Shown: positions 13,116 through 16,249, numbered from the stretch's first letter. The stretch: 64,000 bases of DNA from Natrinema caseinilyticum (GCF_024227435.1 NZ_CP100445.1:3283369-3347368); one strand, 5' to 3'. A program made the numbers and translations. Notes: generated from the letters alone by a model not told the origin.

Positions 13116-13189
13116 GCCGCCTTAGCTCAGACTGGGAGAGCACTCGACTGAAGATCGAGCTGTCCCCGGTTCAAATCCGGGAGGCGGCA
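13116..13189 (+). tRNA. tRNA-Phe (anticodon GAA)
   Basis: Acceptor GCCGCCT (13116-13122) pairs with AGGCGGC (13182-13188), discriminator A at 13189. The anticodon stem CTCGA/TCGAG encloses loop CTGAAGA with anticodon GAA. The T-arm CCGGTTCAAATCCGG is standard. No intron, no encoded CCA. An exact 26-base copy of the 3' end follows 120 bases downstream. Confidence 0.96.
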
Positions 13190-13731
13190 TTTTCCTGCGA
13201 ACGAAGTGAGCAGTGACAATGCTCACGACCGGATTCTGAACCCTGGAAGTCGCAACCGCGAGCGTAGCGAGCCGTCCGTCTTCCTCCGGTTCAAATCCGG
13301 GAGGCGGCATTCCGATTCTACTCGGTCCGAATTCACAGGCTAGTAGCGCCGTCTGTCGATTTCTCCGCGATTCCCGGCTGAGACTTGATCGTTATTCTCA
13401 TCATTCCATTCGTTCCCCGACGCCTTCGACCACTTCAGGCTAGATTCGATTTGAGAGGGGCCTATATTTCAGCGTACAGAATGGAACTCACAGGGACTCG
13501 TCCATCGAAGACCGCTCTCGCGTCATCCCGGTGGGATCAGGATCGATTTTCATCTCGTTGTCTAATTCGGCGGACTTGGAGAAAAGGACGCTGCAATCTA
13601 CAATGACGCCTCTACCAATCGACTTTCTCTCTAACCCTCTCGTTTCGAGGATCCACTAAGCGCGGCAGAGAGTAGCGAGGGGCAGATAGCAACCGAATCC
13701 CCTTCATCATCTCGACAGGTTCGACGGATTC
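13190..13731. other. intergenic region with exact copy of the tRNA-Phe 3' end
   Basis: Positions 13286-13311 are identical to 13166-13191 (T-arm and acceptor 3' strand of tRNA-Phe). GCGAACGAAGTGAGC and GAGCGTAGCGAGC lie between the two copies. From 13312 to 13731 the composition is more AT-rich and I see no convincing gene. The last 8 bases (ACGGATTC, 13724-13731) are the left target-site duplication of the insertion element. Confidence 0.8.
13724..13731. repeat. 8-bp target-site duplication, left copy
   Basis: ACGGATTC directly abuts the left inverted end at 13732. The same eight bases directly follow the right inverted end at 16242-16249. Eight bases is what I recall for the ISH1 group. 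Confidence 0.92.
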
Positions 13732-13748
13732 GGCCTTGTTGAAACCCT
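13732..13748 (+). repeat. left terminal inverted repeat
   Basis: GGCCTTGTTGAAACCCT, a perfect inverse of the right end at 16225-16241. It begins 54 bases before the transposase ATG. Confidence 0.95.
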
Positions 13749-13785
13749 TTCCGACAAACATGGTTGGTGGATAGTTGGAGGGAAG

Positions 13786-14637
13786 ATGGACGCTCTCCCG
13801 AAGTCACGACTCCTTCGATTCGTTGAACGGGCTATGGTGGTGGCTCGCCGTGCTGTTGCACGTTTTTCGACTCGCTATTCGCGGAAGCGGTTCACGCTCC
13901 GGCAACACGTCGTCCTGCTCTGTCTGAAGGTGAAGAAGACGACTACGTACCGCGATCTCGTTGATGAACTCATTGAGATGCCACGCATCCGCGAGGCCCT
14001 CAATCTTGATTCAATTCCCGCACCCTCGACACTCTGCAAAGCCTTCGAGCGCCTAGAGATGGCCGTCTGGCGAGTGTTACTGAACGTCTCGCTCGCGGAC
14101 TTGCCGCTGAACGGTGTCACCGGCATCGATGCGTCCGGATTCGAGCGCGCTCATGCCTCAACTCACTACACGAAGCGAACGAATCTCACTATCCAGCAGT
14201 TGAAGACAACGCTGTTGGTCGATACAGCGACCAACGCTGTGCTCGATATCCACGTAACGACAACGCGAAAACACGATACGCAGATTGCGCCACAGGTAGT
14301 GAAACGGAACGCACAGTCCATCGCGGTTTTGACCGGTGACAAGGGATACGACGACCAGAAGCTCCGGCGGCTCGCCCGTGAACACGACATTCGACCACTC
14401 ATCAAGCATCGTGAGTTCACCTCACTCCACAAAGCGTGGAATGCACGGCTGGACAGCGACCTCTACCATCGCCGAAACATGAACGAGACGGTCAACGCGG
14501 GGATTAAACAGAAATTCGGTGCATTCGTGCGGTCACGCCTCTGGTGGAAGCAGTTCCGCGAACTCGTCATCAAGTGTGTCGTTCACAACCTCGAACGAGG
14601 ACTCGATGTTTCTCACGGGCAGTTTGATTGTCCGTAG
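13786..14637 (+). CDS. ISH1-group transposase (IS5 superfamily, DDE)
   Basis: A 283-residue full-length transposase. The DDE catalytic triad reads Asp115 (GIDASGF), Asp185 (TGDKGYDD) and Glu234 (NETVNAG), with the usual basic N-terminus and a helix-turn-helix-like region at residues 35-85 (RQHVVLLCLKVKKTTTYRDL). It performs cut-and-paste or copy transposition at the 17-base ends. Its lower acidity compared with neighbours is typical of transposases. No frameshift or stop is present, so it should be active. ATG at 13786. Confidence 0.95.
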   Translation: MDALPKSRLLRFVERAMVVARRAVARFSTRYSRKRFTLRQHVVLLCLKVKKTTTYRDLVDELIEMPRIREALNLDSIPAPSTLCKAFERLEMAVWRVLLNVSLADLPLNGVTGIDASGFERAHASTHYTKRTNLTIQQLKTTLLVDTATNAVLDIHVTTTRKHDTQIAPQVVKRNAQSIAVLTGDKGYDDQKLRRLAREHDIRPLIKHREFTSLHKAWNARLDSDLYHRRNMNETVNAGIKQKFGAFVRSRLWWKQFRELVIKCVVHNLERGLDVSHGQFDCP

Positions 14638-14750
14638 CTCTGAGAGGAACAGGCTGCTGAATATAGAGAATGAATCTGTCAAACGAGGTCGCCAACACGA
14701 CGCGTCTCTTCAGCACCCCGAGCCGTGGGTTCGGCGGAAACAGACATAGC

Positions 14751-15968
14751 TCAAGAAGAGATGCCGAAGATCGCGATGCTCACCATCGCTAGGCCGACCA
14801 GGGTGATGCCCACGGTCTGTACCCACTGCTTGTCGCGGACGGCTAGGATCAGTGCGATCAGACACTGTATCGCGAAGAACACCGCGAAGACCCGTGAGGC
14901 CGCTGCGACGGCCGTGAGCACGTCGGTGACCAACACGACCCCAATGGCGCCCACAGCGAGCAGTGGGAAGGTATAGGCGCGTGGGAGGCGCTCGTCGGTG
15001 ACTTCTTCCAAGACATCGGAGCGCGAGGAAATAGCGTTGATGGAGGCAGACGACTGGCTTCCAACCGCCAGGAGCAGAGTGAGCCAAGGGAGCACGGGGC
15101 TTGCCACCTGGCCGATCGTAAGGACCGCGGCCGGGGTCGGCTGTGGGCGAACCTGCGCGAAGAGGAGGAGGGCTGACGCCGGGAAGAGCACGAATGCGAC
15201 CGTGGCAATGATTTGCGCGAGCCGCATCGTCCGGATTCGTCGCGCTGCGCTGAACTCACCGCCGAGGTACCGGGACGCCTCGAAGCCCTGGACGAGTGCG
15301 AAGAACCCGAGAATCTGGCGGGTGCCCCTCGTGGTGAGTGGCGGGTTGTAGTCGGGGAGCGACCAGTTCCCCTGAAGGGCCACGACGACGTTGTATCCGA
15401 GAAATCCGACGATGATTGCCGTGATGGCCGCGAGGTTGAACGCGGTCGTCCGATCGCCCAACTGATTGAGCTTTTCCAGCCCGAAGAAGAAGCCGACCAC
15501 ACCGAGGCCGATCAGCGATCCGACCGCGATTGTTGTTACGACCGTGGCGGCTTCGGCGGTTCCGAGGTCGAAGGGGAAGACGATGGCTTCACCCATCAGT
15601 TGCAGGTAATAGGCGACGTTCACGAGCGAGGCGACAATCAACGACCACTTGGCAACGTTCGAGATACTGCTCAGGAGACCTTTTTCGCCGGACATCGGCT
15701 CGAATCGCTCGATGTTGAGGCGCATGACCCAGCCCATCGCGTAGCCCAGCGCGCAGAGGCCGAGCATCATCAGGGCCGAACCAAGTCCGGTGATGTGCAC
15801 GATAATCGGCGTCATCGCGACGAACCCGATGTCCATGATGTTGGCCAGCGGGACGACCATGGCTTGGTAGCGCCTCGATTCCTGGACCCGGCTCGAATAG
15901 AGCACTAGGCCCAGTGCGAGCAGCGTCACGATTACGAGTATCGTAATTACGAGCATTATTTTCCCCAT
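14751..15968 (-). CDS. multi-pass membrane transporter-like protein, passenger of the ISH1-type element
   Basis: A 405-residue very hydrophobic protein with about eleven membrane segments. Visible motifs include GFFALVQGFEASRYLG near the middle, GSQSSASINAISSRSDVLEE and ITGLGSALMMLGLCALGYAMG near the N-terminus. The arrangement resembles LeuT-fold/APC-superfamily carriers, but I do not recognise the exact family or substrate. It is convergent with the transposase (113 bases between stops) and lies wholly inside the element, with 256 bases between its ATG and the right inverted end. Its proteins loops are much less acidic than those of neighbours, suggesting origin outside the core genome. Confidence 0.75.
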   Translation of the reverse strand: MGKIMLVITILVIVTLLALGLVLYSSRVQESRRYQAMVVPLANIMDIGFVAMTPIIVHITGLGSALMMLGLCALGYAMGWVMRLNIERFEPMSGEKGLLSSISNVAKWSLIVASLVNVAYYLQLMGEAIVFPFDLGTAEAATVVTTIAVGSLIGLGVVGFFFGLEKLNQLGDRTTAFNLAAITAIIVGFLGYNVVVALQGNWSLPDYNPPLTTRGTRQILGFFALVQGFEASRYLGGEFSAARRIRTMRLAQIIATVAFVLFPASALLLFAQVRPQPTPAAVLTIGQVASPVLPWLTLLLAVGSQSSASINAISSRSDVLEEVTDERLPRAYTFPLLAVGAIGVVLVTDVLTAVAAASRVFAVFFAIQCLIALILAVRDKQWVQTVGITLVGLAMVSIAIFGISS

Positions 15969-16224
15969 TGCTCAGGTTGAGCGCCGATGTGGCTGAGTTC
16001 ACGAATGTGGGCAGGCACTGAGCAAATTTGAGACCGGCGTGTCGTCCGTCCCTCACCTCTAACCCAAACCAGGCTGATTATTTGTTATTCAGTATCTATA
16101 CGTTGGCAATATGAGTTTGACAATTCCATCGTCAATTGAGTGGTTCGGATGGGACTCTCGCTCTCCCATCTCGACTGAGAAGCGCTGTATCTCTCGCACA
16201 GCTGATGAAATCTATCACCGGGCG
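15969..16224. other. element-internal region upstream of the passenger gene
   Basis: Holds the promoter region of the passenger transporter (minus strand) and the right sub-terminal part of the element. No further gene is seen. AT-rich stretches around 16078-16100 (TATTTGTTATTCAG) are candidates for its promoter. Confidence 0.45.
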
Positions 16225-16241
16225 AGGGTTTCAACAAGGCC
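16225..16241 (-). repeat. right terminal inverted repeat
   Basis: AGGGTTTCAACAAGGCC, the exact reverse complement of the left end. Confidence 0.95.
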
Positions 16242-16249
16242 ACGGATTC
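16242..16249. repeat. 8-bp target-site duplication, right copy
   Basis: ACGGATTC, identical to 13724-13731. Confidence 0.92.

Follow-up and report, generated by a model that had tools for sequence, protein, structure and literature searches.

Known elements of the ISH1 group are about 0.9-1.15 kb long and carry a transposase only. The locus described here lies in a 64,000-nucleotide stretch of DNA from Natrinema caseinilyticum (the window, with positions counted from its first letter) and consists of an intact element of 2,510 bp (13732-16241) in which one pair of terminal repeats encloses both a transposase and a gene for a membrane protein. It raises the question of whether such a passenger is part of the mobile unit and, if it is, whether it marks one unusual insertion or a property of the family. 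The features referred to below are the following:

13724..13731, no strand: left target-site duplication ACGGATTC (from the sequence; a congener has it once, at its empty site)
13732..13748, plus strand: IRL, left terminal inverted repeat of 17 bp, GGCCTTGTTGAAACCCT (end comparison)
13786..14637, plus strand: DDE transposase of the IS5 family, 283 aa, intact (open reading frame; Pfam DDE_Tnp_1, 5.6e-14; NCBIfam NF033579)
14638..14682, plus strand: post-stop module (half-linker B), conserved, with the left junction site at its end (conservation, PWM, linker model)
14654-14682: left junction site CTGCTGAATATAGAGAATGAATCTGTCAA, inner arm degenerate in this element (PWM score 33.2)
14683..16170, no strand: variable slot with passenger DNA (conservation down to background at the border in 27-29 relatives)
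14751..15968, minus strand: passenger gene for a 405-aa polytopic membrane protein of an uncharacterised family, intact (open reading frame and homologues)
16171..16199, minus strand: right junction site, degenerate in this element and in the opposite orientation to the left site (TCGACTGAGAAGCGCTGTATCTCTCGCAC) (conservation, PWM)
16171..16241, no strand: right module of about 70 bp (half-linker A with IRR), conserved in relatives
16225..16241, minus strand: IRR, right terminal inverted repeat of 17 bp, AGGGTTTCAACAAGGCC (end comparison)
16242..16249, no strand: right target-site duplication ACGGATTC (from the sequence; a congener has it once, at its empty site)

An earlier note on this DNA had claimed perfect inverted ends, a perfect 8-bp duplication and an intact transposase, and all three are borne out: IRL and IRR are complementary at 17 of 17 positions with no mismatch, ACGGATTC stands on both sides of the element (the chance of an 8/8 duplication being about 1.5e-5 per pair of ends), and the transposase frame is uninterrupted. 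The protein meets the criterion for the IS5 family (NCBIfam NF033579; 8.3e-63, 212 bits, cut-off 140), and it is about 70% and 68.5% identical to the transposases of the named relatives ISHla2 and ISHxa2, respectively. We take the 8-bp duplication and the haloarchaeal distribution to fit the ISH1 group, an assumption made without comparison with a reference ISH1; the length and content criterion of that group is met neither by the window element nor by its close clade (1,572-3,903 bp). In viral contigs, neither the transposase nor the passenger had a relative.

To look for an unoccupied target, the two flanks were joined without the element and queried against 29 congeners. In one of them (G054, locus L172) the flanks are contiguous, 92-94% identical and contain one ACGGATTC, as had been predicted for strains lacking the insertion. 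This is direct evidence that the whole 2,510-bp unit inserted once. Two findings that would have spoken against a single unit did not materialise. A search for ends inside the element found no second right end between 14637 and 16225, and the passenger is not a fixed neighbour of the locus, being absent from 124 other genomes of the host's taxonomic family. The proposal that one pair of ends moves extra DNA therefore stands, since the duplication brackets the unit and an empty site exists; the extra DNA comes to 1.6 kb besides the transposase. The same congener differs from the window genome by a length of about 219 bp (L172, ~1006-1225; extra in the congener or deleted in the window genome), which is unconnected with the element and starts about 25 bp to the right of its insertion site. 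Two other observations concern the left flank. The 3′ end of a tRNA-Phe (CCGGTTCAAATCCGGGAGGCGGCA, 13164-13189) is repeated about 120 bp downstream, at 13286-13311, just left of the transposon, and looks like the attachment-site scar of an integrative element. Further away, at 95-111, a sequence with two mismatches to the 17-bp repeat has no paired right end nearby and is probably due to chance or a remnant.

With one transposase, one IRL and one IRR in 13732-16241, the element does not meet the criterion for a composite transposon (two flanking IS copies), but it does meet that for a transporter IS, namely a transposase and a passenger within one end pair and one duplication. It is the only full copy in the 4.77-Mb host genome, and no second copy of the transposase with this passenger was found. 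Because it is single-copy, the evidence for its own movement is limited to the duplication and the empty site. The search for further copies that the earlier note called for thus failed for this combination and succeeded for relatives with different passengers at other sites. It is among such relatives that movement of the passenger with the IS was observed repeatedly: a whole 1,586-bp element is 98.6% identical between Natrinema limicola and Halalkalirubrum salinum, within unrelated flanks (L044/L045); two copies on the chromosome and a plasmid of one genome are 99.9% identical (L030/L031); and in a third pair, whose duplications differ, the right-hand 1,500 bp are 98.4% identical (L128/L129).

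The passenger frame (15968-14751) converges on the transposase, and the membrane-protein gene of 405 residues described earlier was confirmed as an intact frame on the minus strand. That it encodes a transporter, as also claimed, remains a guess: the membrane protein is evident, but the function is unproven because the protein is uncharacterised. Profile searches of Pfam, NCBIfam and PDB gave no significant family or structure (in Pfam, insignificant matches only), a defence library had no match, and the fold model, built from a six-sequence alignment, was too poor to use (mean pLDDT 39). Homologues occur in a few genomes of other haloarchaeal families (65-69% identity), with DNA similarity that barely exceeds the frame, and in bacteria at about 28-35% identity. 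Compared with native homologues, the gene has a dN/dS of about 0.23-0.36.

The second part of the question was addressed with a survey seeded with the window transposase and right end. Scanning 84,980 genomes with the transposase yielded 63 loci, nearly all haloarchaeal, to which loci at conserved right ends and plasmid copies were added. Right ends were selected by matching duplication, and chance cannot yield 8/8 matches at the observed rate. Thirty distinct transposase-bearing elements (1,211-3,903 bp) have an 8/8 duplication. A slot ORF of 100 aa or more is present in 25 of them, and in two of the 25 (L019, L065) the slot includes a second transposase. Within the window-like transposase clade, all 20 elements with such a duplication are at least 1,572 bp long and 19 of the 20 contain a slot ORF of this size, so the idea that the window element is an exception among passenger-free relatives of about 1.1 kb had to be given up. 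Part of the relatives' extra DNA is secondary insertion, because some slots hold other transposases (L019, L052, L057, L065).

By Pfam, the passengers include a type IV pilin, GrpB, an amine oxidase, a periplasmic binding protein, MgtE, PHO4, a multicopper oxidase, RDD, a BAT/HTH_10 regulator with DUF7344, and a formate/nitrite transporter with TrkA_C; P450, Usp and DUF7537 passengers were seen in copies with non-matching duplications. The passenger frames are uninterrupted, and their dN/dS of 0.14-0.35 indicates purifying selection. Different passengers were observed on a near-identical chassis: L015 and L016 share 95.7% identity in the chassis and 98.4% in the right 62 bp, and have unrelated passengers, a pilin in L016 and, read from the sequence without a Pfam match, a beta-propeller-like secreted protein in L015. 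A copy of ISHxa2 on NC_015658.1 is a 2,490-bp unit with RDD and a hypothetical gene inside an 8/8 duplication. The host genome itself has other passenger-bearing sites, two with 8/8 duplications (L010, L012) and one with 7/8 and a broken transposase (L009). The passenger of L130 (752-2650, plus strand) is a 633-aa protein-kinase-like protein that matches PD-T4-6 phage-defence models (1e-25), possibly a defence gene as transposon cargo.

These passengers occupy a slot with fixed borders. Among 27-29 window-like elements, the conserved stretch takes in the transposase and some 45 bp beyond its stop, as far as the end of CTGCTGAATACAGAG..TG.ATTCAGCA, and conservation returns about 70 bp before the right tip; across elements with different passengers, information content is near zero from the identical base onward. 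The inner motif on one side is the reverse complement of that on the other (GTGCTGAATACAGAGCRTGTATTCAGCAC and its inverse), and both passenger junctions carry a conserved imperfect palindrome of about 29 bp, in inverted orientation, with arms of about 11 bp and an asymmetric centre. A PWM built from the two inner motifs reached a score of at least 12 at one place in the 64-kb window, which is the left site of the element itself; its score at the degenerate right site is lower. The loose resemblance between ACAGGCTGCTGAA, after the transposase stop, and CACAGCTGATGAA, before the right end, to which the earlier note had drawn attention, is therefore real and reflects a module pair conserved in nearly all close relatives. 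Its guess that the passenger had entered near an old right end was correct in substance, as the slot lies between the post-stop module and the right module of about 70 bp. An empty chassis, with the two modules joined without a passenger (exact pattern), was found in none of 392 genomes, and the direction of passenger gain is consequently not seen directly. The mechanism of capture remains open.

Besides these elements, we identified 15 transposase-free units with an 8/8 duplication (463-5,853 bp), in which IRL directly adjoins the inner motif and is followed by a slot and a right module of the same kind. All 15 meet the MIC criterion of having no transposase gene, which the window element, with a transposase of its own, does not. 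Their cargo includes an MMPL protein, a tRNA-synthetase-like protein and a BBE-type oxidase (the latter in the host genome, L201, C1:1511016-1512641), and there are also smaller, MITE-like units. One unit (L140:3474-4454, minus strand) carries a 327-aa class I tRNA-synthetase-like protein of the Trp/Tyr type together with a small HTH-like protein. Of 392 haloarchaeal genomes of the order, 243 contain sequences like the 65-bp left module of these units (matches with E ≤ 0.01, of which some are partial and not all represent complete units). Presumably these units are moved in trans by related transposases, an inference unsupported by transposition data. The notion that the hairpin is purely a terminator of the transposase gene was weakened by these units, which keep it directly behind IRL.

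Members with several genes revealed how the modules relate to one another. Their cassettes are connected through a linker of 95 bp, the two halves of which correspond to the two ends of the vehicle. Between genes, the inverted sites of a pair start 66 bp apart in 22 of 24 cases and 65 bp apart in the other two (the 24 include overlapping loci; 18 distinct linkers were aligned). On the linker model, left ends match mostly from positions 45-47 to 94 and right ends from 1-2 to 46-47; in the window, 14614-14675 corresponds to positions 27-88. Left ends thus match half B and right ends half A, and a cassette therefore has the form B-gene-A, which vehicles extend by IRL in front of B and IRR behind A. 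There are four linker matches in L220, and the host genome, with 27 full or partial matches, contains linker arrays too, one of them at C1:2490281-2496169. Rfam gave no match on five linker-bearing loci. Two regions of the host genome, L242 (C1:2486500-2500500, four full-length linkers) and L243 (C2:546500-558500, two), have linker-separated genes without clear intact outer ends and may be decayed arrays or cassettes outside vehicles.

One cassette was also observed in different vehicles. The block of formate/nitrite transporter and TrkA_C in the transposase-free L192 is 98.3% identical over 2,362 bp to that in the transposase-bearing L179 of Halorussus halophilus; identity rises from 0.2-0.5 to 0.9-1.0 within the left site and is back to 0.5 right after the right site. 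Likewise, the PHO4 cassette ends in A-IRR in L128 and in an A-B linker in L220, and the similarity stops at the site. Since homology ends in the sites in both comparisons, cassette exchange with borders in the junction sites is an observation. We also considered invertible cassettes, given that the sites are inverted and that the distant L015 differs in orientation from L021/L148. Close homologues keep their orientation and L214 and L010 agree once L214 is oriented by its right end, so this possibility was not supported.

The reading that we prefer, to which we assign a probability of roughly 0.88, is that the element is the transposase-bearing vehicle of a modular haloarchaeal family of cut-and-paste transposons (IS5, ISH1-like) with exchangeable cassettes. 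The constant vehicle would comprise IRL, the DDE transposase, half-site B, the slot, half-site A and IRR, with the slot holding an exchangeable B-gene-A cassette. The transposase would use the outermost IRL and IRR, insert the whole unit and leave the 8-bp duplication, so that passenger and transposase would move together, and transposase-free units with like ends would be mobilised in trans by such transposases. The cut-and-paste mode is inferred, as is the exchange of cassettes by recombination in the junction sites; homologous recombination is our default assumption there, and the choice between it and a site-specific process is not decided.

How the passenger was captured is a matter on which a composite origin, compatible with this explanation, keeps a real chance, if one slightly short of even. 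Two neighbouring IS copies would have trapped a host gene, the outer IRL and IRR being used and the inner ends lost later; the fixed borders would then be minimal functional end modules, and passengers would have been shuffled afterwards by ordinary homologous recombination. Such a history agrees with L071, which uses its outer right end (8/8 duplication) despite a near-perfect inner one, with L033, where two tandem copies lie within one 7/8 duplication, and with the inner right ends in L149 and L043. It is harder to reconcile with borders that coincide to the base in some 27 elements whose passengers differ, and random loss of inner ends would not give the single geometry of the internal linkers. 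As an observation in their own right, these four loci, with the outer right end in use and inner ends persisting, resemble intermediates of passenger capture.

The palindromic sites with their asymmetric centre, inverted at the two sides of a cassette, could instead belong to a dedicated cassette system, integron-like or dif-module-like, served by a hypothetical recombinase, with IS ends added outside the half-sites. Full A-B linkers between genes, vehicle ends that match only half A (1-47) or half B (45-94), cassette identity that ends in the sites and the arrays in the host genome would all fit. Yet no core of the attI/attC type was recognised (GTTRRRY was not seen in the linker consensus, inspected by eye only), homologous recombination in the sole conserved stretch would put crossovers in the sites as well, and close homologues all have one orientation, so we regard this account as doubtful. 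We hold it equally improbable that the linker and half-sites are the recombination sites of an unrecognised archaeal system whose cassettes are inserted, lost and exchanged by a dedicated recombinase and were taken over as cargo by autonomous and transposase-free ISH1-type transposons, spreading host genes across haloarchaea.

It is likewise unlikely that the hairpins are nothing but transcription terminators or subterminal repeats bound by the transposase, and the passengers random flanking DNA that survived by chance. The pairing of the hairpin covaries only modestly (86% of cells paired) and the two ends share the motif as an inverted repeat, as expected of subterminal binding sites, but the passengers are intact and under purifying selection, and the motif also occurs in full linkers between array genes, with no adjoining terminal repeat. 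Finally, two unrelated events, a short IS beside a host gene and a solitary downstream right end with a chance duplication, can be dismissed, being already refuted by the empty site with one copy and opposed by the low chance of an 8/8 match and by the same architecture in many other elements.

Haloarchaea exchange genes frequently, and the modular family that we favour offers a concrete route for this flow, for transporters and surface proteins as well as for redox enzymes and regulators. Among the "hypothetical" genes next to transposases, many would be cargo whose borders can be defined, and with the junction sites and linkers at hand, the way in which passengers are captured can be tested directly.

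A single haloarchaeal transposon passenger has been published, Hlac_3088 of Halorubrum lacusprofundi, which was called a transposon passenger gene without a description of the family or structure of the transposon (PMC10544981). ISHla2 and ISHxa2 have the same terminal repeats as the window element, and we found no paper describing either as a passenger carrier; nor did we find ISH1-type elements described as a modular passenger family in the literature, of which few subscription papers were covered, and single members may have been flagged earlier. Integron cassettes and Xer dif modules share with the present family exchangeable genes, short palindromic borders and arrays, whereas here the two sites of a pair are inverted and a DDE transposase moves the unit, duplicating the target. 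Transporter IS, or tIS, as defined in the literature (PMC9330008, PMC7986276, PMC10132070), likewise have one end pair, their own transposase and passenger genes unrelated to transposition. In those papers, however, they are single or rare family members, while in the window clade passengers are the rule, vary by element and occupy a slot with fixed, site-marked borders. The modular IS231-MIC231 group of Bacillus cereus (IS4 family; PMC2266710, PMC6542083, PMC3129680) also combines an autonomous IS with passenger DNA and transposase-free mobile insertion cassettes with the same ends. It is bacterial and has its extra DNA between the left end and the transposase (PMC2266710); the haloarchaeal family belongs to IS5 and has its slot between the transposase and the right end, paired palindromic junction sites, and arrays with a 95-bp linker. 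According to a 2008 review of the IS4 family, no other IS family had yet shown the modular organisation of IS231, possibly for want of a systematic search (PMC2266710); a large modular transposon family has now been found in archaea. The window element is thus a transporter IS by definition, inside a modular family that also has MIC-type members and for which IS231-MIC231 is the precedent.
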